The notes beneath the pieces were generated by a model that made no database searches, had not been told where the DNA came from, and saw only the letters and a program-made list of their open reading frames with translations. Source: an uncultured Halomicronema sp. (lineage in GTDB: Bacteria; Cyanobacteriota; Cyanobacteriia; Phormidesmidales; Phormidesmidaceae). From it: a stretch of DNA of 15,766 nucleotides. Position numbers and translations under genes: made by a program. The stretch lies in NCBI GenBank assembly GCA_937897665.1, contig CALCPB010000129.1:1-15766 (forward strand), read 5' to 3'. This document shows, one piece after another, positions 2 through 15,604 of the stretch; within the stretch, counting starts at the first letter, position 1; each line of letters starts with the position of its first letter.

Positions 2-646
2 CCCGGTACGTTGGTCGCCGCTGAAACCGCCGCGCTGACCACGGTGCTAGAGCTAGTACGCGAAATCGGCACGCCCGTTCATCTGATGCGCCTATCGACC
101 GCCCGCAGTGTGGAGCTAGTGCAGGAGGCCCAAGCGGCGGGACTACCCGTCACCGCCAGCACCACCTGGATGCACCTGCTGTTTTCCACTGCCGATGCCT
201 TGAGCTATGACCCCAATTTGCGGTTGGAACCGCCTCTGGGGAATCCAGCCGATCAGGCAGCGCTGATTGCCGGGGTGAAATCCGGCGTACTGAGTGCGAT
301 CGCGATCGACCACAGCCCCTACACCTATGAAGAAAAAACGGTAGCCTTTAGCGATGCGCCACCGGGGGCGATCGGGTTGGAGCTAGCGCTACCGGTGCTC
401 TGGCAACGATTCGTCGCCACCCATGACTGGACACCGCTGGAACTGCTGCAGGCCATGAGCGGTGGCCCCGCCCACTGTTTAGGTATCGCCCCACCCACCA
501 TCGCAGTAGATCAGCCCGTCGAAGCATTTGTGTTAAATACGGCCAAGACGTGGCGGGTGGAGGCAACCAAGTTGAGATCGCCCGCCCGCAATACGCACTT
601 CCTCATACAATACCAACTGGGCAAGGTAATCAGGGTTGTGCAGTAG
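2..646 (+). CDS. pyrC: Dihydroorotase, 3' part (5' end outside window)
   Basis: This is the C-terminal half of a class I-type dihydroorotase, which closes carbamoyl-aspartate to dihydroorotate in pyrimidine synthesis. The frame is open to the left edge of the window (P-G-T-L-V-A-A-E), so the TTG at 11 is only an internal codon. The visible part carries the family blocks HLMRLSTARSVELV, the ASTTWMHLL stretch, the DPNLRLEPPLGNP stretch and IAIDHSPYTYEEKT, which holds the catalytic Asp and metal-site surroundings. PGAIGLELALP and a C-terminal LRSPARNT segment follow. These blocks are typical of the cyanobacterial branch. It converges on the toxin-antitoxin pair, with only 16 bases between the stop codons. 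It has no evident link to the betaine genes and most likely marks the edge of the conserved chromosomal backbone. Confidence 0.9.
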   Translation, partial: PGTLVAAETAALTTVLELVREIGTPVHLMRLSTARSVELVQEAQAAGLPVTASTTWMHLLFSTADALSYDPNLRLEPPLGNPADQAALIAGVKSGVLSAIAIDHSPYTYEEKTVAFSDAPPGAIGLELALPVLWQRFVATHDWTPLELLQAMSGGPAHCLGIAPPTIAVDQPVEAFVLNTAKTWRVEATKLRSPARNTHFLIQYQLGKVIRVVQ

Positions 647-662
647 GCATCTAAAACTGGCT

Positions 663-998
663 TTATAGGGGGATTTTGGCAATCCGGTCAATCCATTCTG
701 CTGCTGTCGTGACCGACCAGATTAAGATCAATTCTTCAATGACGATTTCCAAAGCGGTTTTTCGAGACACAATCAGCACACCTGAGCTTTGGCTATTCGC
801 GATGAATTCGGCAAACTCAGTCGGCATTGTTCTTCGATCATGAGTGACCAAAATGCGCTGCTGCTTTGCTGATCGAGCCAATACTTCGGCATCTCTCAAT
901 CCTGCCAAACCTGCTTCAGTCGCGGGCTGACGGTGGATAGTTCCCGTCACGATTACTTGATTTAGGTCGGCATCAGCCTGAAACTGAATCACTGCCAT
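663..998 (-). CDS. DUF5615 PIN-like toxin-type protein
   Basis: A 111-residue protein that fits the DUF5615 PIN-like family, the usual partner of DUF433 proteins in cyanobacteria and thought to be an RNase-type toxin. Visible family marks are an N-terminal FQADADLNQ stretch (acidic residues D9 and D11), RDAEVL (D36, E38), ILVTHDRRTMP (D54) and a C-terminal LILIWSVTTAAEW segment. These acidic residues would form the metal-binding nuclease site by analogy with PIN domains; activity is inferred, not shown. The start ATG shares one base with the stop codon of the upstream DUF433 gene (TAATG), a classic translationally coupled arrangement. The region between the ADLN and AGL motifs looks slightly shorter than in many relatives, but no residue of the acidic set is missing. 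Confidence 0.8.
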   Translation of the reverse strand: MAVIQFQADADLNQVIVTGTIHRQPATEAGLAGLRDAEVLARSAKQQRILVTHDRRTMPTEFAEFIANSQSSGVLIVSRKTALEIVIEELILIWSVTTAAEWIDRIAKIPL

Positions 999-1321
999 TA
1001 CGCCTGTTGTGCTGACTCCTTAGCCGCAAGCAACTTTTGATACAAAGCAGGAGCATCGCCTTGTAAAGGTTGTGGCATGGTGTCAAATGCCTGCTCTGCT
1101 GATAGAAGATAAACATCAATATTCGAGCGATTGGCTAGGTAGAAGGTGATTGCCCCGTATACCTTCTCTAGATCAAGTAACGGAAAGGATTGGGCAATCC
1201 TTTCCGGAGGCAATCCTTGATGAAAGGCATAAACAATAGAATCCAAGGAAATTCGAGTACCGATAATCCAGTACCCTTCGTTTTTGAACTCTATATAGGG
1301 CTTGATAGCGATTGTGGTCAT
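998..1321 (-). CDS. DUF433 antitoxin-type protein
   Basis: A 107-residue DUF433 family protein, the presumed antitoxin and DNA-binding partner of the overlapping DUF5615 gene. The protein begins MTTIAIKPYIEFKNEGYWI and contains the diagnostic GTRISLDSIVYAFHQGLPPERIAQSFPLLDLEKVYGAITFYL segments, a helix-turn-helix-like module that recognises its own promoter in related systems. It ends in a short charged and Ala/Gln-rich tail that may bind the toxin. The frame continues upstream to a TTG at 1387, but that extension (IDIRLSIRVGYDCVECFSLIV) is unlike the family, so the ATG at 1321 is preferred. No strong Shine-Dalgarno sequence is visible before it. The pair sits between pyrC and the regulator of the betaine island. 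Confidence 0.78.
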   Translation of the reverse strand: MTTIAIKPYIEFKNEGYWIIGTRISLDSIVYAFHQGLPPERIAQSFPLLDLEKVYGAITFYLANRSNIDVYLLSAEQAFDTMPQPLQGDAPALYQKLLAAKESAQQA

Positions 1322-1412
1322 AACAATCAAGCTGAAACACTCAACACAATCATATCCAACGCGTATAGATAGGCGGATATCTATCAATGCTCAGCAGCCT
1401 TACCCTGGCAAG

Positions 1413-2168
1413 TTAGGGAATGACCTCAACTTCGGCGGTGTAGCAAGTCCAGTCAGAGCGCGATAGGGTTTTGCCACAGACGACAGGCTGTCGATCGCCC
1501 TGATAGGCCAAATAGTTAAACACCAGCAGCGGCATCCCCAGCGGTACCGCCAAATATTCGCTGAGTTCATAGGTGGCGGGCACACTCTCTAGTCTCACTG
1601 CTGCTGCAGTGAGGGTGATGCCGCCCTGCGCCAAGGTGCTGTAGGTGAATCCCTGCTGCAGTTCACTGGTGAGGGACGTCGCGATCGCCGCTGGATAGTA
1701 AGCAATGTCGAGGGCGATCGGCGATTCGGCGGCATAAATAATTTTCTCTTGCCAATACACCGTGGCGGATGGCTCAGTCAGCTGTAGTTGACGGCTCACC
1801 TCTGCGGGCGCCTCAATGGGCTGAAACCGCAGCGAATGCACGCGTGCCTCGTAGCCCTGTTGCTGCAGCGCGGCATCAAACTGCATCAGCGGATTCGACA
1901 TTGAAAAGCTGATCTTGTGCTGCTCGGTGCCAAAGATGCCTTTACCTTGTTGGGTGGTGACAAGACCTTGCTGCGTCAGGTTAGCGATCGCCTTGCGGAT
2001 TGTTGTCCGGCTCACCTCAAAAATTTCGCCCAAATCAAACTCGCTCGGCAATCGGCTGCCTGGCTCGTATTCTCCCGCTTCAATTTTTTGCTTCAACTGT
2101 TCCGAAATTACGACATGCAGAGGCTGATTATCTGAAAGCTGTTCACTCGGAACCATAAAAAATGTCAT
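1413..2168 (-). CDS. GntR family (HutC/UTRA type) transcriptional regulator
   Basis: A 251-residue regulator. Residues about 16-80 form the winged helix-turn-helix of the GntR family (LPSEFDLGEIFEVSRTTIRKAI with the recognition helix around SRTTIRKA, then the wing GLVTTQQGKGIF). Residues about 85-245 form a UTRA ligand-binding domain, which places it in the HutC subfamily, whose members usually sense small molecules of the pathway they control. It lies 133 bases downstream of the sarcosine oxidase gene and on the same strand, so it could be co-transcribed with it or have its own promoter. Position suggests it controls betaine use, with betaine or a demethylated intermediate as effector; this is inference. 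The start at 2168 is the longest ATG; an ATG four codons later is possible, since neither has a clear ribosome binding site. Confidence 0.85.
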   Translation of the reverse strand: MTFFMVPSEQLSDNQPLHVVISEQLKQKIEAGEYEPGSRLPSEFDLGEIFEVSRTTIRKAIANLTQQGLVTTQQGKGIFGTEQHKISFSMSNPLMQFDAALQQQGYEARVHSLRFQPIEAPAEVSRQLQLTEPSATVYWQEKIIYAAESPIALDIAYYPAAIATSLTSELQQGFTYSTLAQGGITLTAAAVRLESVPATYELSEYLAVPLGMPLLVFNYLAYQGDRQPVVCGKTLSRSDWTCYTAEVEVIP

Positions 2169-2301
2169 CGTTTGCTGACCGTCCCTGACATCTTATCGAC
2201 ATTTGCAGAGGAACCTACTGGCAGAAAATGGCCTCACACCTGGCATAAAGCCTCAAAATTTCCGCCCGAGACGATTCCCCCTTTTACTGCCCCCCTGCTG
2301 G

Positions 2302-3459
2302 CTACGCCGCAATCAGCTGAAATCGCGACAACTTGAATAAATTCGTGTCGTGGGGCGTCTTACCCTCGACGGCTAAATCGGCCAGCATTTTGCCCATCAG
2401 CGTGGTGAACTTAAAGCCATGTCCCGAAAAGCCGGCACCGATGACCACATGGGGATAGTCGGGATGCTGATCAACCACAAAATCCTTATCGGGAGTCACG
2501 GTGTAGAGGCAGCGGCGGGTGTAAAGCAGCGGACCAGCGGCGCCGGGTAGGTATTGGTTAGCCCAATTACGAATGCGCTCGGTCCACGCCTGACTGGGGG
2601 TATAGTCCACCTCGCTGGGTTTATCCACGGTGTCCCAACCGTAAAACGTGGTGATTTTGACGCCGATACTGGGATCTTCGTGAGGAATGCCGTAGGGCAT
2701 TTCGCCGTAGTCGCCGTTCATATGGGCAAAGAACACGGGGAATTTGCCGGGTTCAAAGTCGGCGGCGTTTTTCGGTTCATAGAAGCCAAGCTGGCAGGGC
2801 ATGATTTTGAGCGGCAGATCAATCCCTTGTTCTGCCAGCAGGCCTTTGGCCCAGCTCCCCACGGTCAGCACGATGCGATCGCACCCGTAAGTCTCCGTCT
2901 CTGTCTGCACCTCAACGCCACTTTCTGAAGGGATGATTTTGAGCACGGGGGTCTGATCAATCACGGTCGCGCCCCTGGCCTGAGCCAGTCGCGCATGGGC
3001 GAGCACACAACGCGAGGTTTTGAGCAAGCCCCCATCAGGGTTAAACAGACCGGCCATCCCATCTTCGAGTGCAAATTGCGGGTACCGCTGAGCGATTTCA
3101 GCTTGGGAGAGATACTCATATGGCAAGCGCGATTCATCCAAGCTGGCTTTCATGCGTTGAAAGGTATCCGTTTCGGGAAAGCCAAAGTCGAGGCCGCCGG
3201 TCTTCACATAAAGTTTTTCGCCTGCTTCTTCCTCTAGGGCAAACCACAGGGGGTAAGCATCCCGCATCAAGTCAACGTAGGTCGGATTGTCGTAGGTGTA
3301 GCGAATCACCCGCGACTGACCATAGGAGCTGCCGTTTTGGTGGTCTAGCTCAAACTGCTCTAGCAATAGGACTTTTTGTCCGGCCTTAGCCAGATAGTAA
3401 GCAGCGGCACTGCCCACGCCGCCAGCACCCACCACGATCGCGTCAAACTGCTTCACCAT
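2302..3459 (-). CDS. Monomeric sarcosine oxidase-like FAD oxidase
   Basis: A flavoprotein of the monomeric sarcosine oxidase / N-methyltryptophan oxidase / PIPOX family (about 385 residues, normal length). Expected reaction: sarcosine + O2 to glycine + formaldehyde + H2O2. Numbering from the TTG two codons upstream: dinucleotide-binding GAGGVG at 13-18, GSSYGQSR at 45-52, the O2-activating Lys equivalent K270 (GVKI), the covalent-FAD Cys at 319 in RRCLYT with Y321 after it, and the C-terminal GAGFSGHGFKF signature at 343-353. Two conserved active-site histidines are replaced: the His before GQSR/GDTR is Tyr48, and the His four residues after the Lys is Phe274. Substrate preference may therefore differ from classical sarcosine oxidase. 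Start: AGGAG lies 11 bases before the ATG at 3459 and 5 bases before a TTG at 3465, so both are possible. Confidence 0.85.
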   Translation of the reverse strand: MVKQFDAIVVGAGGVGSAAAYYLAKAGQKVLLLEQFELDHQNGSSYGQSRVIRYTYDNPTYVDLMRDAYPLWFALEEEAGEKLYVKTGGLDFGFPETDTFQRMKASLDESRLPYEYLSQAEIAQRYPQFALEDGMAGLFNPDGGLLKTSRCVLAHARLAQARGATVIDQTPVLKIIPSESGVEVQTETETYGCDRIVLTVGSWAKGLLAEQGIDLPLKIMPCQLGFYEPKNAADFEPGKFPVFFAHMNGDYGEMPYGIPHEDPSIGVKITTFYGWDTVDKPSEVDYTPSQAWTERIRNWANQYLPGAAGPLLYTRRCLYTVTPDKDFVVDQHPDYPHVVIGAGFSGHGFKFTTLMGKMLADLAVEGKTPHDTNLFKLSRFQLIAA

Positions 3460-3670
3460 TGCCAATCAAACTCCTAGCGAAAAGTCAGGGGATATCCAAA
3501 ATTTGCAACCGTCGGGCAGCGGGCGAGATCGCGCTCTGCCTCTGCGGCAAGGCTTGATAGAGTTTGCTCAGAATGGTTGCCCGATTTTTGGAACAGGTTG
3601 GTGATCGCCCCACGCAGCTTTGCTCGAATCTTGACTCGCTGAAAATTCAACCGGCAAATGTCAGTCTCGC

Positions 3671-3903
3671 TAAGGAGGCGTCATCAAGGTCTGTGTTCAG
3701 TGTCCAGCGGCTACCGATCCCCCTCAATCCCCCTTGAAAAGGGGGACGCCTAAGCCCGTGAGTTGATCGCCCCTTTCTTCTAGCGAAGCCTTAGCACAGC
3801 CATACCCGCAGGGTTATTGCCCGAAGGGCTTTAGGGGGCGGCGACAGCGGGGGATCCTACGAGCGCGCTAAACAGATATTCATCAAGGGATGACGCCTCC
3901 TTA
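3671..3903. mobile_element. MITE-like element with TA-flanked terminal inverted repeats
   Basis: The sequence TAAGGAGGCGTCATC at 3671-3685 recurs as its exact reverse complement at 3889-3903, so a 233-base stretch is bounded by 15-base perfect inverted repeats. If the outer TA is taken as the duplicated target, the repeat proper is AGGAGGCGTCATC (13 bases) with TA on both sides, the pattern of small non-autonomous elements mobilised by IS630/Tc1-type transposases. Inside are a second pair of inverted ends, GATCCCCC at 3716-3723 and GGGGGATC at 3849-3856, and an unrelated palindromic segment around 3780-3833. It therefore looks like nested insertions. It encodes no transposase and splits the minus-strand transporter/sarcosine oxidase unit. 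Confidence 0.65.
3728..3746. repeat. CCCCCTT/AAGGGGG hairpin of a dispersed cyanobacterial repeat
   Basis: TCCCCCTT at 3728-3735 pairs with AAGGGGGA at 3739-3746 around a 3-base loop, a strong 8-bp stem. It belongs to the GATCCCCCT...CCCCCTT...AAGGGGG repeat type scattered in many cyanobacterial genomes. In the minus-strand transcript it would lie between the transporter and sarcosine oxidase coding regions, where it could act as a processing, stability or attenuation element. That role is inferred only. Confidence 0.6.
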
Positions 3904-3925
3904 AGAGCCAAAAAGCAAACCCTTC

Positions 3926-5599
3926 CTAGGACGCGATCGCTTTTTCGGCAGCTTCCGAGTCTTGCAGCACCTTTTTCACATGCACCACATCATGCTCGTA
4001 CCGCAGCCCTTTGTAGATGCTGTAGCACATGATCAACAGCACAATCGCAAAGGGGAAACCCGTAGCGATCGAAGCCGTCTGTAAAGCGCCTAGACCGCCA
4101 CCCAACAGTAGAGCTGCCGCCACGACTCCCTCCATCACCGCCCAAAAGACCCGTTGCGGTACAGGCGATTCGAGCTTGCCGCCCGAGGTCAAGCTATCCA
4201 CCACGAGCGAACCGGAGTCAGAAGAGGTGACGAAGAAGACCACCACCAACACGATGCCCACAAAAGTCGTGATGCCGGTGAGCGGCAGTTGCTGCAGCAT
4301 GACAAACAAAGCGGTTGACACGTTGTCACCCACGGCGGTGCTAATCACGCCTGCCGTGGCTTCATTCAGCTCAAAGCTGAGGGCGGTGCCGCCAAAGACT
4401 GACATCCACAAAAAGGTCAGCATGGAAGGCAGCAGCAGCACGCCCAAGATGAATTCCCGCACGGTGCGTCCCTTGGAGACACGGGCGATGAAGATGCCCA
4501 CAAAGGGCGACCAAGACACCCACCAGCCCCAGTAGAAGACCGTCCAGCTGTTTTGCCAGCTAGTACCCGAGAACGTTTCCGTCCAAAAGCTCAGTGTGGG
4601 TAGGGAAGCGGCATAGTAGCCCAGAGTTTCCACAAACGAATTGAGGATAAACAGGGTCGGCCCAACCAGCAGCACAAAGGCCATGAGCACTGCCGCCAAA
4701 GTCATGTTCAACTCGCTCAAGCGGCGGACCCCATTGCCCAAGCCAGAGACCACAGACGCCGTGGCAAAGCCCGTGATAATGAAGATAAGCCCCACTTGAA
4801 CTGGGGTACTAATTTGTAGACCAAACAAGAAGTTGAAGCCCGCGTTGACCTGTTGAACGCCAAACCCGAGGGATGTGGCGAGACCGAACAGTGTGGAGGC
4901 CACGGCCAAAATGTCAATCACATTCCCCGGCCAGCCGTAGATCTTTTCCCCCAGTAAGGGATAGAACACTGAGCGGATGGTCAGCGGCAGGCCCCAGTTA
5001 AAGGCAAAAAAGGCGAGCGATAAGCCCACCAGCGCGTAAATGCCCCAGGCATGTAAGCCCCAATGGAAAAAGGTGATGCCTAAAGCTTGCTTGGCCGCAT
5101 CGGCGGTATTTGGGGTGATGTCCCCCAGCAAAGCAGGCGGATCTTGGAAGTGGAAAATCGGTTCGGCCACACTCCAAAACATGAGACCAATCCCCATCCC
5201 CGCGCTGATCAGCATCGCCACCCAGGCGAAGGTGGGAAATTCTGGTTTGGCGTCGGGGCCACCGAGACGGACTTGCCCCAGCTTACTGAACGCCAGAAAG
5301 ATGGTGAAAATCAAGAATAGGGATACTGAAAGGATGAAAAACCATCCCAAAGAGCCCGCGATAAACCCCTGAACTGCGCCAAAAGCCGTCTCGGCGGGTT
5401 CTTGAAAAATCAGGGTAAACACCACAAACAGCAGGATCAACCCACCGGACACGAGGAAGACCTCGGGATGAAAATCAAAGCCATTACCAGTGATATTGCG
5501 ATCGCCAGGGCGGCGCCTAATGTGGCGCGTGGGAGCATGCTCGGGCATCACAAATGGATGCTCGTCATGGCTCCCCTGCCCATTATTCTGAGTAGTCAT
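3926..5599 (-). CDS. BCCT family glycine betaine transporter
   Basis: A 557-residue secondary transporter of the betaine/carnitine/choline family with about 12 membrane segments between residues 45 and 530. The glycine-rich substrate and ion stretch GMGIGLMFWSVAEP is at 134-147; its glycine pattern is that of Na+-coupled betaine carriers. The aromatic box is intact: W180, W185 and Y188 in HWGLHAWGIYAL, and W359, W360 and W363 in the family signature WWVSWSPFVGIFIARVSKGRT. The N-terminal tail is about 45 hydrophilic residues and the C-terminal tail only about 28, short for an osmosensing domain of the BetP kind. This suits a nutrient-uptake role rather than a strictly osmotic one (inference). 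It is the first gene of the minus-strand unit and diverges from the Rieske gene. Choline or carnitine as substrate cannot be excluded. Confidence 0.92.
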   Translation of the reverse strand: MTTQNNGQGSHDEHPFVMPEHAPTRHIRRRPGDRNITGNGFDFHPEVFLVSGGLILLFVVFTLIFQEPAETAFGAVQGFIAGSLGWFFILSVSLFLIFTIFLAFSKLGQVRLGGPDAKPEFPTFAWVAMLISAGMGIGLMFWSVAEPIFHFQDPPALLGDITPNTADAAKQALGITFFHWGLHAWGIYALVGLSLAFFAFNWGLPLTIRSVFYPLLGEKIYGWPGNVIDILAVASTLFGLATSLGFGVQQVNAGFNFLFGLQISTPVQVGLIFIITGFATASVVSGLGNGVRRLSELNMTLAAVLMAFVLLVGPTLFILNSFVETLGYYAASLPTLSFWTETFSGTSWQNSWTVFYWGWWVSWSPFVGIFIARVSKGRTVREFILGVLLLPSMLTFLWMSVFGGTALSFELNEATAGVISTAVGDNVSTALFVMLQQLPLTGITTFVGIVLVVVFFVTSSDSGSLVVDSLTSGGKLESPVPQRVFWAVMEGVVAAALLLGGGLGALQTASIATGFPFAIVLLIMCYSIYKGLRYEHDVVHVKKVLQDSEAAEKAIAS

Positions 5600-6196
5600 A
5601 AGGGTGATTCAGTTTTCAACACATCAACGAACGGCAAACAGATCTCTGCAAGAAACACCCGTCGTAGCACTGCAATGTTTCTTAAACAGAGAGTTTCGTG
5701 AGCCGGAATCACAGCAAACTACTGCGCAATTCCGTACACTGACGCCGCCACTTCTTGCCTGCCAATCATGTTGCCTGTGAACACTTTTCAGCAGGAATCA
5801 CACGATTGTCAAGAAATCACAACACCCCGTAACAGGGTTCTGTGGGACTAGCTTAGGCAGCGATCGCAATATCTCAGCTCGCAAACATCTTTTTTCTTCA
5901 GCAAGGCAACACTCTCCCAGCTATGTCAAGCAACCGAGAAACTCTATCGAGAACGAACTTAAGCCGCACCACCCTAAAAGACTGTCATTGCCGATACCAT
6001 TGTTGCGATAAGTCTTGAAATCTTGATTTTTAACAGAAGACATAGCGACTGCAGCCTCCCAAACTGTCGCCTTCAGGCGCTGAAAAGCCTTTCCAAAGAG
6101 GGTTTTGCTTGATCGGAGAACTTCTACAGAAAAGTTTTGAAATTGTAAAACAGAAAACATAAAAAGTATTTTCGCGCCTTTATGGTCTCTTCTATG

Positions 6197-6232
6197 ACTT
6201 GTGATGACATGTTTGAAACACTTGTAATGACA
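6197..6232. promoter_or_regulatory. Tandem TGT-N4-ACA boxes, candidate operator
   Basis: ACTTGTGATGACA at 6197-6209 and ACTTGTAATGACA at 6220-6232 match at 12 of 13 positions and are 23 bases apart, about two helical turns. Each contains a small dyad TGT-N4-ACA with the GT-N-AT-N-AC outline. GntR/HutC regulators commonly bind short dyads of the GT-N-TA-N-AC type, so these are candidate sites for the regulator encoded at 1413-2168. They end about 60 bases upstream of the proposed -35 of the Rieske gene. The link to that protein is inference. Confidence 0.4.
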
Positions 6233-6293
6233 ACATCCATTAGGTCGTTTTTGGATGGACGTCTGAGTTGCCCTATGCGTCTGCAGTGGGTCT

Positions 6294-6323
6294 TTGATTA
6301 CAGGTGAAGTGCCCCAATAAAAT
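6294..6323 (+). promoter_or_regulatory. Candidate sigma70-type promoter for the Rieske gene
   Basis: TTGATT at 6294-6299 and TAAAAT at 6318-6323 are separated by 18 bases. They match the -35 consensus at four of six positions and the -10 consensus at five of six. Transcription would begin around 6330, leaving a leader of about 20 bases before the ATG at 6350. The assignment is by eye only. Confidence 0.3.
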
Positions 6324-6349
6324 TCGTGCAAGTGCCACAGAGGCAGAGT

Positions 6350-7570
6350 ATGACTCAGGAAAAAATTGTTGCTTCCCCGCCTGAACTGACTCTGGTAGAC
6401 CCATGCAGTCGTTATCAGGAGCTGAATCCAGCAGCGGAATCAGCTGTGATCCATCTGGATGACTATCGGCAGCCCGGTTTGCCGGGTAAGGCGTATACCA
6501 GTGCTCAGTCTTTAGACCAAGAGCGGCAAACGGTGTTTAGTCGCTATTGGGTCTGTGTCGGTTTAGCGTCAGACCTGCCGAATCCAGGGGATGTGTATCC
6601 AACGGATGTGGCCGGGATGCCGATCGTGCTAGTGCGCGATCGTGCGGGTCAGCTGGGAGCCTTTCACAATATCTGTAGCCATCGCGGCCTGCAGCTGGTC
6701 GAGCAGCCCTGCAACGTGCAAGCACACCTGCGCTGCCCCTATCACTCCTGGACTTACAAGCTCGACGGTAGCCTGAAAAATACGCCCCATTTTGGCGGCT
6801 ACTACAAAGATTCCTACGAGGGCTTCGATCGCGACAAGCGCGGCCTGCAGCCCATTCGTTCTGATCAGTGGCTCGACCTGATCTTCGTCAATTTGTCGGG
6901 CGATGCGCCGCCCCTGGCGGAGTATTTGCAGCCGGTTCGAGATCGCTGGGCCATGTACGACCTGAGCCTGTTGCGTCATGAGCCTCGCGAAGTCTCGCTG
7001 CAGTGCAACGCCAACTGGAAGCTGGCCGTCGAAAACTTTTCAGAAAGCTATCACTTGAGCTGGGTGCATCCCGCCTTGAACAGTTGCTCTCGCATGGAAG
7101 ATCACTTTGCCTTCGAGGTCGGCGATATCCATGTCGGTCAAGGCAGCCTGCTATACAAAAGCGGTGAGATTGAAGGGCGATCGCTGCCGTGTCTGCCCGA
7201 TTTGGCCGCTCATCAAAAAACCACCGTGGCCGAATACATCACCGTGTTTCCCAACCTGATGTTAGGCGTGCACCCTGACTACTTTTTGGCGTTTACCGTC
7301 AATCCCCTCAGTCCCACTCAAACGCAAGAGCGCCTAGCCTTCTACTTCATGGGAAATGAGGCCATGACGCCCGAGAACCAAGCGCTGCGCAACCTGCCCA
7401 TTGCCCTCTGGCGCGAGACCAATGACGAAGACATCGCCATGATCGAGCGCCTGCAGGCGGGCCGCAACTCGCCCCGGTTCGATGGCGGCTGCTTTTCTCC
7501 CGAGTTAGAACAGCCAGTCTACCGGTTTCAGCAGATGGTTGCCCGCGCGATCGAAGAGCTCACCCCTTGA
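6350..7570 (+). CDS. Rieske non-haem iron oxygenase, probable glycine betaine demethylase (GbcA-type)
   Basis: A 406-residue alpha subunit of a Rieske oxygenase, of the betaine/choline/carnitine monooxygenase group. Expected reaction: betaine + O2 + 2 electrons to dimethylglycine + formaldehyde. The [2Fe-2S] motif is C109-x-H111 (NICSHRG) and C129-x2-H132 (CPYHSW). The mononuclear iron site is in NWKLAVENFSESYHLSWVHP: H235 and H240, with E228 in the bridging-acid position as in this subgroup, and D361 (NDEDIAMIE) as the carboxylate ligand. The start is the ATG at 6350, with GAGG ending six bases before it; a GTG at 6326 in frame lacks such a site. No reductase gene follows. Choline monooxygenase or carnitine monooxygenase remain alternatives, but adjacent dimethylglycine and sarcosine oxidases favour betaine. 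Confidence 0.85.
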   Translation: MTQEKIVASPPELTLVDPCSRYQELNPAAESAVIHLDDYRQPGLPGKAYTSAQSLDQERQTVFSRYWVCVGLASDLPNPGDVYPTDVAGMPIVLVRDRAGQLGAFHNICSHRGLQLVEQPCNVQAHLRCPYHSWTYKLDGSLKNTPHFGGYYKDSYEGFDRDKRGLQPIRSDQWLDLIFVNLSGDAPPLAEYLQPVRDRWAMYDLSLLRHEPREVSLQCNANWKLAVENFSESYHLSWVHPALNSCSRMEDHFAFEVGDIHVGQGSLLYKSGEIEGRSLPCLPDLAAHQKTTVAEYITVFPNLMLGVHPDYFLAFTVNPLSPTQTQERLAFYFMGNEAMTPENQALRNLPIALWRETNDEDIAMIERLQAGRNSPRFDGGCFSPELEQPVYRFQQMVARAIEELTP

Positions 7571-7810
7571 CCCCGCTCCCGAACCAGCAGCGACAGCCAT
7601 CAAATCACAACCGATTCCACGATGAGCCTTGCCCCCAAACCAAAGTGCCGAACTGAGGGAATTTCTGAGAAAACATAACTCCGCCAGGCTCCACTCTGAT
7701 CGCAGCCCCAAAGCATCTCCAACCCTGAACCCTCCACCCTCTACTCTCGCCCCTCCACTCCCCATCTCTCGACTTCCTCCCATTCACGTCCTAGCCCTCG
7801 GAGCCTACCC
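7571..7810. other. 240-base gap between Rieske and dimethylglycine oxidase genes
   Basis: No gene is supported here. The right half is a C-rich, CTCCACCCT-type dispersed repeat (see 7724-7764). A GGAG seven bases before the ATG at 7811 is the ribosome binding site of the next gene. The gap is long for a tight operon, so the downstream genes may have a separate promoter. Confidence 0.5.
7724..7764. repeat. Dispersed CTCCACCCTCTACTCT repeat, copy 1
   Basis: Bases 7724-7747 match the reverse complement of 14003-14026 at 23 of 24 positions, and the match resumes with CCACTCCCC after a small gap. This pyrimidine-rich type is common between genes in filamentous cyanobacteria. The two copies are in opposite orientation and enclose the dimethylglycine oxidase to serine dehydratase block. 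Confidence 0.7.
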
Positions 7811-10234
7811 ATGAAAACTCACGCCACCCTCGTCGTCATTGGTGCTGGTATCGTCGGCTGCAGTACCACTTACCACCTCGCCAAACAAGGCTGGAAAGAC
7901 ATTGTCGTCGTGGAACAAGGCCCCCTCTTTGCCACAGGCGGTTCCACGTCCCATGCTCCCGGTCTGGTGTTCCAGACCAACGCATCGAAAACCATGACCA
8001 AGCTGGCCCAGTACACCATCGACCTGTACAGCCAGCTCAGCACTGACGAAGGCCCCGCCTACTACCCCTGCGGCGGCATCGAAGTCGCCTACACCGAGGA
8101 GCGCATGGCAGAACTCCAGCGCAAACTCGGCTGGGCCAAGTCCTGGGGGGTGGATGGGGCGACCTTGCTGCCGCCAGCAGAGGTGAAAGCGAAAGTTCCC
8201 ATGATGGACGAAGCTAAGATTCTTGGCGGCTACTATGTGCCCACCGACGGCATCGCCAAGGCGCTACGGGCAGCGGAGGCATTAGCAAATCATGCAACAG
8301 CAGCCGGAGCCGCTGAGTTCTACGGCAACACCACCGTCATGGATATCGAAGTGGTGGAGGGTCAAGTGCAGGCAGTGATCACGGACAAGGGCCGCATCGA
8401 AACCGACAAAGTGCTCGTCTGTGCAGGCATTTGGGGGCCGCGTATTGGCCGCATGGTGGGCGAAGTGATTCCCCTGACGCCCGTGCAGCATCAGTATGTG
8501 AAAACCGCCCCGATTGCTGAACTGGCAGGCGAAACCGAGGAAGTCAACTTCCCGATGGTGCGCCACCAGGATCACGCCATGTATTTCCGGCAGCACGGTG
8601 ACTGCTGGGGCATTGGGTCTTACCAGCACGAGCCGCTGTTGGTGGATCCGGACAACATTCTGCCCTATGCCGAAGCGCCCGTCATGCCGTCGGTTAAGCC
8701 CTTTACCGAAGAGCACTTTGGCCCTGCCTGGGAATCAACCACCGAGTTATTCCCCGCGCTACAGGGTGCAGAACTGCCCTACAAAATCAACGGCATGTTT
8801 TCCTTCACGCCCGACAGCGGTTCCGTCATTGGCGAATCGACCAAGGCCAAAGGCTTTTGGGTAGCCGAAGCGGTGTGGGTCACCCACGGCGGTGGGGTCG
8901 GCAAAATCGTGGCGGAACTCATGACCACCGGGGTGCCCAGCCTCGACATTCACGAAATGGATATCCACCGCTTCCCAGAAGTCTGCAAGAGTAGCGACTT
9001 CATCACCCGCGCGGGTGCCCAGCAGTACGACGAGGTGTACGACATCATTCACCCGCTCGATCAGCAGACCCATTCGCGGGAGCTGCGGGTCAGTCCCTTT
9101 TACCCGCGCCTGAAAGAAATGGGGGCCCAATTCATTTTCAGCGCTGGGTGGGAGCGGCCCCAGTGGTTCAAGTCCAATATTGCGTTGTTGGATGAGTACG
9201 ACGTGCCGCCCCGTCATGGCTGGGAGGCAAAGCACTGGTCACCGATTCAGGGGGCAGAGCACTTAGCCACCCGCGATCGCGTCGCCCTTTACGACCTCAC
9301 CCCCTTCGCTAAATTTGAAATCACCGGCCCTGGCGTGGTGGACTATCTGCAATCCCTCTGCGCCAACAACGTGGACAAGCCCGTCGGCAAGGTGATCTAC
9401 ACCGCAATGCTGGACGAGAACGGCGGCATCATGTGTGATCTGACGGTCAGCCGCTTAGGGGCGGAAAAATACTGGGTGGTGACAGGCGGTTCCGTCCACG
9501 GGCACGATTTGGCTTGGATGCAGGCGCATCTGCCGGACGATGGTTCTGTCCGCATCACGGATGTGTCCTCCAGCTATTGCTGTGTCGGGCTGTGGGGGCC
9601 AAAAGCCCCGGCGGTGCTGCAAGCGGTCACCCAGACCGACGTGTCGAAACCGCAGTTCAAATTCTTTACCAATCAGCAGATCCGCATCGGCAATATTCCC
9701 GTGCTGGCGGTGCGGGTGTCTTACGTCGGGGAAGAGGGCTGGGAAATCTACGCCCCCACGGAGTGCGGTCTGAAGCTGTGGGATACCCTCTGGGGCGCTG
9801 GTCAGTCACACGGCATGATCGCTGCCGGTCTGGCGGCGTTTGAAACCCTGCGGTTGGAGAAGGGCTTTTTGCTGTGGGGCACCGACATTCACACCGAATA
9901 CGACTCTTACGAAGCGGGTTTGGGCTTTGCGGTGAAGCCGAATCAGGGCGACTTCATCGGTAAAACCGCTCTGCTGCAACGAAAAGAATACGCTAGCCGG
10001 AAGCTTTGCTTCCTCACGCTAGATGATCCGACGGCAGTGGTGATGGGCAAGGAACCCGTGCTAGCGGACGGCAAGGTGCTGGGCTATGCGACTAGCGCAG
10101 GCTATGGCTACAGTCTGGGGCGCGGCGTCGTGTATGCCTATCTGCCGCTGGGCTATGCCAAGCCTGGCACGTCGGTCACGGTGGAGTACTTCGGTAAAGC
10201 CCTGGCCGCGACGGTAGTTGAGAAATTGCTTTAG
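7811..10234 (+). CDS. Dimethylglycine oxidase/dehydrogenase, FAD and folate-binding two-domain enzyme
   Basis: An 807-residue protein closely resembling actinobacterial dimethylglycine oxidase (about 830 residues). It should convert dimethylglycine to sarcosine and hand the methyl carbon to tetrahydrofolate as 5,10-methylene-THF. Residues 6-370 are a DAO-type FAD domain with GAGIVG at 11-16 and GSTSHAPGL, whose H48 matches the covalent-FAD histidine of dimethylglycine dehydrogenase. HQYVKT (H227) and AMYFR (Y258) match substrate-site residues. Residues 430-560 and 590-800 are GcvT and GcvT C-terminal barrel domains; D543 in GGIMCDLTVSRL matches the folate-site Asp. The GGAG-7-ATG start is clear. 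The EamA gene follows after 65 bases. Sarcosine dehydrogenase is the main alternative, but the HAPGLVFQTN and HQYVKT signatures favour dimethylglycine. Confidence 0.9.
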   Translation: MKTHATLVVIGAGIVGCSTTYHLAKQGWKDIVVVEQGPLFATGGSTSHAPGLVFQTNASKTMTKLAQYTIDLYSQLSTDEGPAYYPCGGIEVAYTEERMAELQRKLGWAKSWGVDGATLLPPAEVKAKVPMMDEAKILGGYYVPTDGIAKALRAAEALANHATAAGAAEFYGNTTVMDIEVVEGQVQAVITDKGRIETDKVLVCAGIWGPRIGRMVGEVIPLTPVQHQYVKTAPIAELAGETEEVNFPMVRHQDHAMYFRQHGDCWGIGSYQHEPLLVDPDNILPYAEAPVMPSVKPFTEEHFGPAWESTTELFPALQGAELPYKINGMFSFTPDSGSVIGESTKAKGFWVAEAVWVTHGGGVGKIVAELMTTGVPSLDIHEMDIHRFPEVCKSSDFITRAGAQQYDEVYDIIHPLDQQTHSRELRVSPFYPRLKEMGAQFIFSAGWERPQWFKSNIALLDEYDVPPRHGWEAKHWSPIQGAEHLATRDRVALYDLTPFAKFEITGPGVVDYLQSLCANNVDKPVGKVIYTAMLDENGGIMCDLTVSRLGAEKYWVVTGGSVHGHDLAWMQAHLPDDGSVRITDVSSSYCCVGLWGPKAPAVLQAVTQTDVSKPQFKFFTNQQIRIGNIPVLAVRVSYVGEEGWEIYAPTECGLKLWDTLWGAGQSHGMIAAGLAAFETLRLEKGFLLWGTDIHTEYDSYEAGLGFAVKPNQGDFIGKTALLQRKEYASRKLCFLTLDDPTAVVMGKEPVLADGKVLGYATSAGYGYSLGRGVVYAYLPLGYAKPGTSVTVEYFGKALAATVVEKLL

Positions 10235-10299
10235 CGCATCGCGATTATCCAGGCACCCCTCTATGCTGCTAGAGAGTGGGCTTCAACGAGGCTTGAAAC

Positions 10300-11235
10300 A
10301 TGCACCTAATCGGATTGGAATTATTGTTTGTGGTGCTCTGGAGTTCCGGTTTCATCGGGGCCAAGTATGGGTTGCCCTATGCCGGGCCGTTCACTTTGCT
10401 GTTTGTTCGATATGTGAGCGTCGCCGTCTTGTTGTTCATCTGGCTCCGCTATCGCCGCCAATTGCGATTCCCGAGTCGAGCGGCGCTCGCCCGTTCCGCC
10501 ATGATTGGTCTGCTTGCTCATGCCATTTGGCTCAGTGCGGTGTTTGGCGCGATCGCCCTCGGCGTTTCACCGTGGATTGTGGCCCTCATCACGGCGTTGC
10601 AGCCCATGGCAACTAGCGTCTTATCTGGCCCGCTGTTGGGGGAATCAATATCGCCCGTGCAGTGGTGGGGCTTGGGCATTGGTTTAGTCGGGGTGGTGTT
10701 GTTGGTCGTCACCAAACTAGATGGCGCGGCAGGGGTTTCGCTGGTCGGATATGTCCTGCCCTTTCTCGCGGCGGCCAGTATGACCCTGGCAACGTTGTAT
10801 CAGCGGCATCTCAACCGCAACCAAGCAGGACAGAATTTGTCGGTCATTCCCAGTTTATTTGTGCAGGCAGTGGCCAGCGCGATCGCCCTGTGGCCCTTGG
10901 CAGTGTTGGTCGAGGGCTTGAGCATCCAGTGGAGCGGGCAGCTCATGTTGGCCCTGGCCTGGTTGACCATCGTGCTTTCAATCGGGTCTTACGGGCTGAT
11001 GCTAAAGCTGTTGGAATATCGCACAGCGGCCCGAGTGTCTAGTTTGATGTATCTGTCCCCACCCACAACCTTGTTGCTGGGATTTCTCCTATTCAACGAC
11101 CAAATCGCTTGGGTCGATGCAGCGGGTCTGTTGATTACGGCGATCGGTGTGACCTTGGTTTACCGGGGAGGAACTGATAGCACCAAGGATGGGCGCAATC
11201 CTGACACCAGAAATTTACGCAGCATGATGCCTTGA
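10300..11235 (+). CDS. EamA/DMT-family transporter
   Basis: A 311-residue membrane protein made of two EamA repeats, about ten hydrophobic helices (first repeat residues 3-130, second about 147-290), ending in a short hydrophilic tail. The start LIGLELLFVVLWSSGFIGAKYGLPYAGPF is the usual first repeat opening, and ALGVSPWIVALITALQPMATSVLSG is the helix 3-4 region. The DMT superfamily includes exporters of amino acids and metabolites. Its place between the dimethylglycine oxidase and MTHFR-like genes suggests export of an overflow product such as glycine, serine or a methylated amine, but the sequence does not show the substrate. GAGG lies eight bases before the ATG, and the next gene begins 30 bases after its stop, consistent with one transcript. 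Confidence 0.87.
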   Translation: MHLIGLELLFVVLWSSGFIGAKYGLPYAGPFTLLFVRYVSVAVLLFIWLRYRRQLRFPSRAALARSAMIGLLAHAIWLSAVFGAIALGVSPWIVALITALQPMATSVLSGPLLGESISPVQWWGLGIGLVGVVLLVVTKLDGAAGVSLVGYVLPFLAAASMTLATLYQRHLNRNQAGQNLSVIPSLFVQAVASAIALWPLAVLVEGLSIQWSGQLMLALAWLTIVLSIGSYGLMLKLLEYRTAARVSSLMYLSPPTTLLLGFLLFNDQIAWVDAAGLLITAIGVTLVYRGGTDSTKDGRNPDTRNLRSMMP

Positions 11236-11265
11236 GCTGACCCATTTTTTCCGCAGGTTGACGCC

Positions 11266-12048
11266 ATGCAGTTTTCCATCGAAGTGACGCCGAAAGTGGA
11301 TGTCTCAACATTGCCGAAGGGCATCCGGGAGGTGTCGATCACGTACTTGCCAGGGGCGGACGATCTCGATGTAGTCGCACAAGCGGTAAGACTGCGGCAG
11401 TTAGGATTTGACCCGATACCTCACGTTCCGGCGAGAAGCATCCGCGATCGCGCTCACCTCACTCGCTATCTCTCTGAACTTAAAACCGAAGCCGACATTC
11501 GCCAAGTCCTACTCATCGGCGGCAGTCCCGATCTCCCCGTTGGCCCCTTCGCTTCCACCCTAGATTTGTTGGAAACGGGACTCTTTGACGGGCTGCGGGT
11601 TGGCGTAGCGGGACATCCCGAAGGCATGCCTGTGCTAAGTGAGCAGGAGTGCGATCGTTTTTTAGCTCTGAAAAATCAGTACGCCCGCGACACCGGCACC
11701 GAGATGTTCGTCATGACTCAGTGGTCATTGGATGTGGCGACCATTCACCGCTGGCTTGATCGCATCGAAGCGTTCAATACCCTGCCCATCTACCTCGGCA
11801 TTCCTAGTCCCACGTCCCCTGCCACGCTGTTGAAATTTGCCCACATCTGCGGCGTCAAAACCAGCCTGCTAGGATTGCGGAATCAATCCGGTCGCCTCGG
11901 CAAACTGCTCACGGTGCAAACGCCCGATTATCTGGTGGATGGTTTGGCTGGACGCATCGACCATTTTCATCTCTATACCTTTGGCGGCATTCAGAGATCG
12001 GGCGACTGGCTGGCGACGCGCCAATCCGACCTTGCCATTCCAGCGTGA
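11266..12048 (+). CDS. Compact methylenetetrahydrofolate reductase-like protein
   Basis: A 260-residue single-domain protein of the MTHFR (FAD-linked TIM barrel) superfamily, which interconverts 5,10-methylene-THF and 5-methyl-THF. Marks: an N-terminal FSIEVTPK with E6 in the place of the catalytic Glu of [22 protein letters not shown] (81-95) in place of the usual RGDLPPG loop; [12 protein letters not shown] (111-122); FVMTQWSLD with Q152; and [10 protein letters not shown] near the end. It is shorter than E. coli MetF (about 296 residues), mainly at the N-terminus and between blocks, and may be a specialised paralogue rather than the housekeeping enzyme. In this operon it could process C1 units released by dimethylglycine oxidase. 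No strong ribosome binding site is seen; only a weak CAGG lies upstream. Confidence 0.75.
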
Positions 12049-12166
12049 CATATCGGTTTCCCATCAATATTTCGTACGGAATTTCATACGGACGAAGCAT
12101 TTTGGCCCATGCCCGATATCCCCAACCACGAGCGTACCCGTCCACCCAATTACCCTGACCCCCAAA

Positions 12167-13558
12167 ATGTCTACCAGCGTTTTCGACATCTTCAAAATCG
12201 GCATCGGCCCTTCCAGTTCCCACACGGTTGGCCCGATGAAGGCGGCACAACAGTTCGCCCAGGGGTTGGCCAGGGATGGCTTGCTGAATCAGATCCGGCG
12301 CATCCAGATTGACCTGCACGGATCGCTGGGGGCGACGGGACGGGGGCACGGCAGCGATCGCGCCATTCTGCTCGGCTTAGAAGGGGAATCGCCCGAATCG
12401 GTCAACACCGACCTGGTGGACGCCTATCTGTCCCGCATGCGCGCCCCCGGCTCGGTCTGGCTGCTGCGACAAAATGCTGTGCCCTTTGACGAAAAGACGG
12501 ACTTGAATTTTCACTGGCAGCCCCTGCCCTTTCATCCCAACGGCATGGCGTTCACCGCCTTTGATGCCCTCGGTGCCATGCTGCGATCGCGCACCTACTA
12601 TTCCATTGGCGGCGGCTTTGTGGTGGATGAAAATGCGGCCTGTATCGATCGTTTGCGGCTGCACCAATCCCCCGTGCCCTACCCGTTCACCACAGCGGCA
12701 CAACTGCTGGACTATTGCCAACAAGGCGGCATCGCCATCAGCGATCTGATGCTGCAAAACGAGCAGGTGTGGCGCTCAGAGGCAGAAATTCGGGCCGAAC
12801 TGCTGCGTATCTGGCGAGTCATGCAGGACTGTGTTTCTCGGGGCTGCCATACTGAGGGCACCCTGCCCGGCGGCCTCAAAGTCAAGCGCCGCGCTGCTGA
12901 CGTTTACCGACATTTGAAAGAACGCTCCGATTTTTCGCTGGCGGATCCGCTCACGATTATGGACTGGGTGAATGTCTACGCCATGGCCGTCAACGAAGAG
13001 AATGCCGCTGGGGGGCGTATCGTCACGGCCCCAACGAATGGCGCAGCGGGCATCATTCCGGCGGTGATGCACTACTACCATCGGTTTTGTCACATAGCGA
13101 GCGATGACGGCATTGTCCGGTTTTTGCTGACGGCGGGGGCGATCGCCATCCTCTATAAAGAAAACGCCTCGATCTCCGGTGCCGATGTGGGCTGCCAGGG
13201 CGAAGTCGGCGTCGCCTGCTCCATGGCGGCCGGAGCGCTGGCCGCAGTCCTCGGTGGCACTCCGGCACAGGTTGAGAACGCGGCAGAAATCGGCATGGAA
13301 CACAACCTCGGTCTAACCTGCGACCCCGTCGGTGGACTGGTGCAGGTGCCCTGTATTGAGCGCAACGCGATGGGTTCGATCAAGGCAATTAATGCCGCGC
13401 GCATGGCCCTCAAGGGCAACGGCGAGCACTGCGTCCACCTCGACAAGGTGATCAAAACCATGCGCGACACCGGACGCGATATGCACGAAAAGTATAAGGA
13501 AACCTCTCGCGGTGGTCTGGCGGTGAATGTGACTACTGTGAACGTGATTGAGTGTTGA
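12167..13558 (+). CDS. sdaA: L-serine ammonia-lyase, one-chain iron-sulfur type
   Basis: A 463-residue single-chain L-serine dehydratase (serine to pyruvate + ammonia). The N-terminal beta domain opens with the family signature [21 protein letters not shown]. The catalytic alpha domain (about 190-460) contains [30 protein letters not shown] and [21 protein letters not shown]343, C385 and C396 are in the positions of the [4Fe-4S] ligands, and the protein ends in Cys463, matching the tail-in-mouth C-terminal Cys of this enzyme type. The frame extends upstream to 11939 inside the preceding gene, but homology begins at the ATG at 12167. No good ribosome binding site precedes it. It follows the MTHFR-like gene by 118 bases and would complete betaine breakdown by turning the serine made from glycine into pyruvate. 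Confidence 0.92.
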
Positions 13559-14170: not shown

Positions 14171-15604
14171 TTGGACTTTTCGAGGTTACCTGAGACTGCG
14201 TTTGTGCACCCACGGGGCGAGAATCGAGCGGCGATTGAGGCGTTGCTGAGCCAGGTCGCTACGCGAATTTTGGATTATTTGACTGGGGCGGCAGACCAGA
14301 CACCATTGCCGGAGTTGCAGACCTTATCCACGATCGCTCTACCCGAAAAATCGGGCGACGTTGCGACCCTGATGGCGACGCTAGACACCGTATTGAGCAC
14401 GGCCATGAATCCCGCTCATCCAGGCTATGTGGGGCACATGGATCCGTTGCCGACGACGGCTTCAATTGTCGGCGACTGGGTGGTAGCGGCGCTCAATAAC
14501 AACATGCTGAGCGTCGAGATGTCGCCGTTGTTTTCGCGGTTGGAGCCGCTGCTACTGCGCGAAATTGCACAGCTATTTGGCCTAGGCGATCGCGCTGGCG
14601 GGCTGTTGGTCAGCGGCGGCAGTTTGGCCAACCTGCAGGCCCTAGCCGTGGCCCGCAATGTCAAGCTCGGCACGCTCAAAACAGGGCTGCTGACTCAGGC
14701 GCAGCCTCCTGTTTTTTTCATGTCGGAAGCAGCGCATTCCTCAATCAAAAAGGCGGCAATGCTGCTGGGGTTAGGCACCGACGGCGCGATCGCGGTAGCG
14801 ACGAATGACCAGTCACAGCTGGATTTGCCAGCGTTGCACCAGGCGATCCACCAGGCCCAGCAGCAGGGCCAAAAACCATTTGCGTTGGTAGCGACAGCGG
14901 GCACCACGGTAACCGGCAACATTGACCCCCTGGTAGAACTGGCGGCGATCGCTCGCGAACATGACCTGTGGTTTCACGTCGATGCGGCCTACGGGGGAGC
15001 ACTAATGTTTACCGAGGCCTATCGCGATCGCCTGCAGGGCATTGAGCAGGCCGATTCCGTCACGTTTAATCCGCAAAAGTGGCTCTATGTTTCTAAAACC
15101 TGTGCCTCGGTGTTGTTTCGCGAGATGGACCAGTTGCAGCACCACTTTCAGGTCGCGGCCCACTACATGAATACGGAAGATGACTGGGTTAAACTAGGCG
15201 AAATTTCGGTGCCGGGCACCCGCCATGCCGACGTGCTGAAGCTGTGGCTGTCTTTGCAGCATTTGGGCCAGCAGGGCTATCGCGAACTCATCGCCGCTAA
15301 CTATGCCCTGACGACGCATTTCACCGCCGCCGTTAAAGCCCGACCCGAGCTGCAGTTGGCCAGTGAACCGGAGATGAATCTGGTCTGTTTTCGCGGTTGT
15401 CCCGAATGGCTGCCAGCCGACCAGTGGGACGACTGGAATCGCCGACTGCAGGCGCATCTGCTGCAGGAAGCGCGGGCCTTTTTGTCGCTACCGCGATATC
15501 GCGGCCACAACTGGCTCAAGGTGGTGCTGTTAAACCCTTACACAACCCTGGCAGAAATTGAGCGGATCTTTGCGGCGATTGATCAGTTCTTGGCCATTAC
15601 CTAG
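14171..15604 (+). CDS. PLP-dependent group II amino acid decarboxylase-like protein
   Basis: A 477-residue protein of the pyridoxal-dependent decarboxylase family (aromatic amino acid, glutamate, diaminobutyrate and related decarboxylases). It contains [11 protein letters not shown] (80-90), [11 protein letters not shown] (148-157), AAHSS with H189 stacking on [15 protein letters not shown] (242-253), HVDAAYGG with D271, and NPQKWLY with the Schiff-base lysine K303. Full length and intact. The start must be the TTG at 14171: an in-frame TAA lies two codons upstream, the next Met is far inside the protein, and GGAG ends seven bases before the TTG. The substrate is not readable from sequence; tyrosine, DOPA or cysteine-sulfinate-type acids are possible. 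It is separated from the betaine genes by the repeat and the small membrane gene and is probably independent. Confidence 0.88.

Follow-up and report, generated by a model that had tools for sequence, protein, structure and literature searches.

Catabolism of glycine betaine by gbcAB and by other routes has been described in heterotrophs (sections considered of PMC12093977 and PMC12478193). In Pseudomonas and Vibrio, which use gbcAB, dgcAB and soxBDAG, a Rieske oxygenase initiates a triple demethylation of betaine to glycine, and GlyA and serine dehydratase then lead on to pyruvate (sections considered of PMC12093977). Cyanobacteria figure in the literature searched as makers and importers of betaine, which they synthesise or take up as an osmolyte (sections considered of PMC4390839 and PMC7824335). 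The sections considered of PMC7824335 contain neither the word degradation nor demethyl, sections considered of PMC5395565 and PMC4744692 and a term search of PMC10087775 (no matches) gave nothing on cyanobacterial betaine catabolism, and no report of betaine catabolism genes in cyanobacteria was found among the matches listed from open-licence titles and abstracts. Here we analyse a contig of 15,766 nucleotides from an uncultured Halomicronema sp. (CALCPB010000129.1, referred to as the window; it is one whole contig of a 5.2 Mb assembly of 1047 contigs that is 90% complete). It carries a gene island which, judged from its sequence, is probably a dedicated, inducible module for glycine betaine utilisation in cyanobacteria. 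The kind of pathway is already known; what is new is the host, the branch to which the oxygenase belongs, the missing reductase and an operator-like palindrome, the last two of which go beyond the initial annotation of this DNA.

The island spans positions 1413-13558, and its eight genes are open frames that match, in profile scans, the families and strands given by the initial annotation (Table 1). In the core layout, a GntR regulator, an oxidase resembling monomeric sarcosine oxidase (MSOX) and a BCCT transporter form one arm, divergent from a Rieske oxygenase and a dimethylglycine oxidase (DMGO). Compared with the Pseudomonas and Vibrio systems, the island oxygenase falls short on the GbcA model and lacks an adjoining GbcB, a one-chain DMGO stands in place of DgcAB, a one-chain oxidase in place of SoxBDAG, and GntR in place of GbdR or SouR. 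Similar in gene content are haloarchaeal and Priestia plasmid clusters (L050-L053), which likewise combine an oxygenase, a solA-type oxidase, DMGO and BCCT, with ilvA in both Haladaptatus clusters. Their DMGOs are 46-48% identical to that of the island, but the two oxygenases compared are only 26-29% identical and lie on other branches of the tree, and the hosts are heterotrophic. Because the same functional set occurs with so dissimilar an oxygenase, these sets look as if they were assembled independently around the same chemistry. DMGOs nearer than the haloarchaeal and Priestia ones are 57-63% identical, one of them from a metagenome-assembled genome (MAG) of Latescibacteria. In haloarchaea, DMGO has been noted beside BCCT, and for two species betaine was of no benefit or failed to support growth (sections considered of PMC3102087).

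Because the core recurs in 23 genomes, the clustering is not due to chance. Scanned with the Rieske protein, named genomes yielded nine loci, all cyanobacterial by name and 69-93% identical, in a Halomicronema MAG, Leptolyngbya SIOISBB, Nodosilinea P-1105, Leptolyngbya DLM2.Bin27, Oscillatoria CS-180, Leptolyngbya Heron Island J, a Leptolyngbya MAG, cf. Phormidesmis LEGE 11477 and Nodosilinea nodulosa PCC 7104; the genes flanking the island vary among them. DMGO (E <= 1e-150) was present in 19 of 63 genomes of the window's order, representing 7 of 14 genera. In a class sample of 388 genomes, 22 had the Rieske protein (E <= 1e-80), of which 18 belong to the window's family and 4 do not. A phylum sample of 386 genomes, which overlaps the order and class samples, gave DMGO in 2 genomes at E <= 1e-60 and the Rieske protein in 32 at 1e-20 (at most four candidates scored per genome); close Rieske matches were confined to the window's genome and a single congener (76%), the others being 27-35% identical. 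Joined, the order DMGO set and the class Rieske set, with the nine named loci apparently included, place the core island in 23 cyanobacterial genomes with four family labels, some copies being truncated where the contig ends. A protein database search with the Rieske protein gave 968 matches at E <= 1e-30, and among the best 120 of these the organism-named ones were cyanobacterial, except one labelled only Leptolyngbyaceae bacterium. The island probably reaches the coccoid group of Myxosarcina and Hyella, since Rieske protein and DMGO are both present and apparently co-located in Myxosarcina GI1 and Hyella LEGE 07179; the Hyella DMGO carries the NCBI name dimethylglycine oxidase.

Counted on the fetched DNA at more than 45% identity, the 23 islands hold GntR in 19, MSOX in 22, BCCT in 21, Rieske oxygenase in 22 and DMGO in 22, with EamA in 13, the protein resembling methylenetetrahydrofolate reductase (MTHFR) in 13, serine dehydratase in 12 and a PLP-dependent decarboxylase in 2; these counts are lower bounds, as several contigs end inside the island. 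DMGO follows the oxygenase in every island whose contig continues. The co-occurrence of eight families that the initial annotation suggested searching for thus narrows to a core of five, and EamA, the MTHFR-like protein and serine dehydratase are accessory, because uncut stretches without one or another of them exist (genomes G399, G441 and G398). The layout also has exceptions: BCCT was not seen in G543 and is moved and turned in G441, and in G398 the Rieske gene is split by an insert of about 1.3 kb (L085:10027-11332) with a 398-aa frame that looks transposase-like by eye, so that this strain may be without the first demethylation step.

Of the enzymes, DMGO bears out the initial annotation. 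Residues 6-805 of its 807 match PDB 1pj5 (N,N-dimethylglycine oxidase; E 6.1e-239); it has the same DAO, FAO_M, GCV_T and GCV_T_C domains, and keeps the positions of His225, Tyr259 and Asp552, which we take to be catalytic (the 3gsi chain has Ala at 552); by sequence it is very probably a true dimethylglycine oxidase. We take 1pj5 to be the Arthrobacter enzyme. The context of the Arthrobacter DMGO gene includes a tetrameric sarcosine oxidase.

We propose that glycine betaine would be imported by the BCCT transporter and converted by the Rieske oxygenase to dimethylglycine, the methyl group leaving as formaldehyde. DMGO would remove the second methyl and hand it to tetrahydrofolate as 5,10-methylene-tetrahydrofolate, and the MSOX-like oxidase would remove the third to yield glycine. 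GlyA, encoded elsewhere, together with serine dehydratase where present, would then convert glycine to serine, pyruvate and ammonium. The initial annotation had placed all three demethylation steps in the cluster; the DMGO step very probably holds, and the action of the Rieske enzyme on betaine and of the oxidase on sarcosine is a proposal. It had correctly noted that GlyA is not among the island genes: one copy lies outside the island in each of the four genomes tested. Its endpoint at pyruvate is likewise tentative, serine dehydratase being an optional extra, since it is found with 12 of the 23 islands and is absent from several uncut ones. The copy in the window scores well above the model cut-off (TIGR00720 721.3 bits, cut-off 345.1; PDB 4rqo L-serine dehydratase, E 1.9e-160).

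In the oxygenase, C109, H111, C129, H132, H235, H240 and D361 are invariant in 13 of 13 aligned sequences; presumably these are the Rieske Cys/His ligands and the two His and one Asp that bind iron. The quaternary-ammonium oxygenases Stc2 and CntA are expected to have this ligand set, which is general to Rieske oxygenases. In a Foldseek search, ranks 1-3 and 5-18 were Stc2 or CntA and rank 4 a putative oxygenase, with a structural model (pLDDT 64.8, TM about 0.5) too weak for reading the active site. A tree of 42 rows unites 16 island oxygenases in one clade (100/99), while stc4-neighbour, GbcA-like, CntA-like and haloarchaeal oxygenases fall elsewhere, several deep branches being long and weak. 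GbcA orthology of the island oxygenase is rejected on both model scores and tree placement. Because the oxygenase fails the GbcA model and the nearest relatives found outside cyanobacteria adjoin aldehyde dehydrogenases, the substrate of the oxygenase has to be read from its neighbours. These point to betaine, since DMGO and the oxidase adjoin, a BCCT transporter is present, and in the haloarchaeal and Priestia clusters an oxygenase of a different branch has the same kinds of neighbour.

Several results weigh against a betaine pathway. On the GbcA model NF058607 the oxygenase scores 149 bits (cut-off 670), which is CntA-like (E. coli YeaW, 154) rather than GbcA-like; for comparison, the oxygenase beside stc4 scores 498 and two Rhizobium sequences 414-416. 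Sister to the island clade (99/100) are oxygenases of Pseudomonas MPC6, Cupriavidus, Oceanisphaera, Phaeobacter and Leisingera, all five of which adjoin an aldehyde dehydrogenase, with BCCT within the fetched stretch in three; all five are plasmid records, and nearer chromosomal relatives are possible. The MSOX-like protein passes the N-methyl-L-tryptophan oxidase (MTOX) model NF008425 (362 bits, cut-off 257) and falls short on TIGR01377 (336.5 bits, cut-off 479.65), and the position aligned with MSOX His269 is Phe in all 11 island copies aligned. The BCCT transporter has as its best PDB match a trimethylamine transporter (8zw8, 562 bits; BetP, 326). A Haloterrigena record has DMGO, ilvA and BCCT with neither oxygenase nor solA in the fetched stretch. 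Beside these stand the glycine betaine model NF047988, at 587.5 bits the top of five BCCT models for the island transporter, under a cut-off of 650, and the best PDB match of the oxidase, monomeric sarcosine oxidase 1zov (248 bits; MTOX 2uzz, 179). The flavin Cys and the active-site Lys and Arg of MSOX are present in all 11 island copies aligned. We assume these three residues and His269 to be functional in MSOX.

At three of the sister-clade loci (L045-L047), two FAD enzymes and an EutQ/cupin protein follow, and those of L045 scan as NorW-like and pipecolate-oxidase-like. The sister-clade loci (L045-L048 and L130) perhaps encode a methylated-amine pathway. A possible link of this clade to a homarine operon found no support in the literature searched.

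The region between the two arms contains the palindrome ACTTGT-N4-ACAAGT, a new element reported here. It emerged from a comparison of 12 divergent regions as a conserved 16-mer with a mismatch sum of 25, the best 16-mer of one shuffled window region giving 43. Sixteen of the 23 islands were taken in (in G441 and G543 the region used lies between the Rieske and MSOX genes), and with both half-sites and at most two mismatches the palindrome occurs at 39 sites, with at least one in each of the 16 divergent regions, against 0.84 sites on average and 3 at most in 100 dinucleotide shuffles; the test is not independent, since the motif was derived from the same regions. More independent is a search of 11 whole genomes of the 23 with the pattern ASTTGTNAYKACAWGT, which gave 17 distinct places, 13 of them in island divergent regions, and 21 strand-matches as against 5 for a backward control. 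The remaining 15,016 bp of the window contain no copy, and the site at 6197-6212 is the sole match of a stricter pattern in the window's whole genome. Two of the four off-island palindromes (G399 and G405) immediately precede the gene for a GntR paralogue that shares 40-41% identity with the island GntR; they are free of mismatches (L182:4040, L184:4179), and the divergent genes look desaturase-like and homoserine acetyltransferase-like by eye. The other two lie inside an open reading frame (ORF) 6 kb from DMGO in G399 and near no GntR gene in G405.

The regulator has the GntR and UTRA domains of the GntR/HutC type and, as expected of that type, a palindrome at the genes it would control. Among the islands without GntR, that of G386 is cut by the contig end, while in G170, G388 and G410 the fetched DNA runs past MSOX without it, and each of these genomes has a 76% identical ortholog elsewhere. 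GntR as the predicted binder of the palindromes is well supported, because the sites are mostly at islands, two precede GntR paralogues, and detached orthologs are kept in three of three genomes. The palindrome probably ties both arms to GntR, and the two arms are very probably co-regulated, which bears out the earlier view of a regulated cluster. With palindromes between the arms and GntR itself the last gene of one arm, the protein would bind there and probably repress both arms until a pathway compound relieves it. In the window's genome (G000:C813:5000-5194), a fragment with one stop shares 78% identity with residues 185-249 of the island GntR and is either a partial second copy or a strain variant.

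The core of the nine named loci contains no further non-overlapping ORF of at least 120 aa, hence no reductase, and no GbcB stands beside the oxygenase there. The oxygenase would therefore lack an island-encoded reductase and would draw electrons from host ferredoxin and PetH. The window's genome has two FNR-type matches, PetH and a 442-aa protein on another contig (L044:1129-2457, minus strand) with an FNR part, a C-terminal ferredoxin fusion and a hydrophobic-looking N-terminus, which reaches 115.6 of 500 bits on the GbcB model. Proteins of this flavohaemoprotein/GbcB-like type (E <= 1e-40) occur in 6 of 19 island genomes versus 3 of 44 others of the order (one-sided p 0.017; one of the 3 non-island copies is only 32% identical), which tells against PetH as the general donor. 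Given this enrichment, such a protein may serve in some hosts; as a conserved, dedicated reductase it was discarded, since it is no requirement. Of the 23 island genomes, 7 were searched with PF00175, and PetH was found in 6; it was the sole match in G398 and in G170 (723 bits, cut-off 600), and one to three additional FNR-type proteins are present in G389, G391, G405 and G410. The search has misses, with zero matches in G399, and did not cover GR-type reductases. Since the core holds no reductase ORF and PetH is the only FNR-type match in G170, which is 99% complete and has the island, ferredoxin with PetH appears the most likely donor for some hosts at least; G170 points to photosynthetic ferredoxin as the electron source but is no proof of it. 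A ferredoxin donor invites comparison with plant choline monooxygenase, also a Rieske enzyme of quaternary-amine metabolism, which is listed as a ferredoxin-dependent chloroplast protein and as not found in cyanobacteria (sections considered of PMC6006212). The likeness is one of description, and the island core differs in having no aldehyde dehydrogenase.

That the host is a cyanobacterium follows from the excess of HIP1 (GCGATCGC; 21 copies versus 0.49 expected) together with the closely related islands in cyanobacteria. The initial annotation had added other cyanobacterial repeats as a mark of the host; the window yielded no tandem repeats, tRNAs or Rfam families, and only the HIP1 part stands. 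We reject the notion that the contig is heterotroph DNA misbinned into a cyanobacterial assembly. The window is indeed just one whole contig among 1047, but its HIP1 sites are spread across the contig and orthologous islands sit on long cyanobacterial contigs (e.g. 6.1 Mb, Nodosilinea nodulosa PCC 7104), which leaves misbinning next to no probability.

It is more of a concern that the island might target another methylated amine, such as choline, another betaine or an N-methyl amino acid, with the Rieske enzyme attacking it and the two FAD enzymes finishing the N-demethylation. The aldehyde dehydrogenases beside the sister-clade oxygenases and the BCCT genes in three of the stretches fetched there, the fit of the oxidase to the MTOX model and the resemblance of BCCT to a trimethylamine carrier would all suit such a substrate, and some JGI records label the cyanobacterial oxygenase choline monooxygenase. 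Yet the nine named cores leave no ORF for an aldehyde dehydrogenase, the gene that so regularly follows the oxygenase matches a characterised DMGO over its full length with catalytic positions kept, and glycine betaine uptake is the top BCCT equivalog, if under its cut-off; we regard another amine as unlikely. Somewhat apart from this question of substrate, the module could serve osmotic balance and not nutrition, clearing betaine imported under salt when salinity falls. Betaine is a cyanobacterial osmolyte (sections considered of PMC4390839 and PMC7824335), at least one carrier is marine by name (Heron Island), and serine dehydratase is often absent. A GntR/HutC regulator with a mostly island-bound palindrome would better suit substrate induction, however, and breakdown to glycine gives usable nitrogen and one-carbon units either way, so that an osmotic role seems rather improbable to us. 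A nutritional betaine module thus remains our preferred reading.

Table 1. Features of the island in the window
Feature	Position	Strand	Family match or remark
GntR/HutC-type (UTRA) regulator, last gene of leftward arm	1413..2168	-	PF00392 + PF07702
MSOX/N-methyltryptophan oxidase family FAD enzyme, proposed sarcosine to glycine	2302..3465	-	DAO-type
BCCT transporter, proposed glycine betaine uptake	3926..5599	-	PF02028, 640 bits
Two operator-like palindromes, ACTTGT-N4-ACAAGT	6197-6212, 6220-6235	.	weaker third copy at 6120-6135
Rieske non-haem iron oxygenase alpha subunit, proposed glycine betaine N-demethylase	6350..7570	+	PF00355 + PF00848
DMGO (FAD and folate-binding GcvT domains)	7811..10234	+	PF01266 + PF16350 + PF01571 + PF08669
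EamA-family transporter, accessory	10300..11235	+	PF00892
MTHFR-like protein, accessory	11266..12048	+	weak MTHFR match, 20 bits, cut-off 24
Iron-sulfur L-serine ammonia-lyase, single chain, accessory	12167..13558	+	TIGR00720

The divergent gap is 750 bp, and the intergenic gaps of the rightward arm are 240, 65, 30 and 118 bp; promoter and terminator matches were at chance level only. For the Rieske gene the ATG at 6350 is a likelier start than 6326, and for the serine dehydratase gene 12167 is likelier than the longest-ORF start, 11939, since the TIGR00720 match begins at residue 80 of the longest ORF. The best solved match of the MTHFR-like protein is PDB 7xg9 (5,10-methylenetetrahydrofolate reductase, E 7.8e-38; next 1v93, E 7.7e-5), which we take to be Sphingobium S6MTHFR; a canonical MTHFR is separate from it in four of four genomes. 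S6MTHFR oxidises 5-methyl-tetrahydrofolate, i.e. runs backwards (PMC12585457), and so starts from that compound, whereas the island DMGO would yield methylene-tetrahydrofolate. Beyond the island, the 3' part of a dihydroorotase-like amidohydrolase lies at 2-646 (plus strand), with a longer ORF at the same place in a Halomicronema relative (L032), and DUF5615 and DUF433 genes lie end to start at 663-1387 (minus strand), a pair that to our eye resembles a toxin-antitoxin module. At 14171-15604 (plus strand) is the PLP-dependent decarboxylase, DABA/aspartate decarboxylase-like but under cut-offs; because it stands beside the island in only 2 of 23 genomes, we place it outside the island unit.

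More tentatively, the island may represent a light-driven use of betaine by benthic cyanobacteria, in which electrons would pass from photosystem I through ferredoxin to a reductase-free Rieske demethylase, and the osmolyte released by neighbouring cells would supply nitrogen and one-carbon units, all controlled by a GntR switch of its own; we offer this as a possible but doubtful extension of the betaine module. The named carrier strains and the short predicted operator make the island directly testable. If the betaine module is real, some mat cyanobacteria would vie with heterotrophs for one of the major organic nitrogen compounds, with consequences for the question of who consumes osmolytes in mats and reefs, and a Rieske oxygenase running on photosynthetic ferredoxin would be useful for light-driven chemistry.

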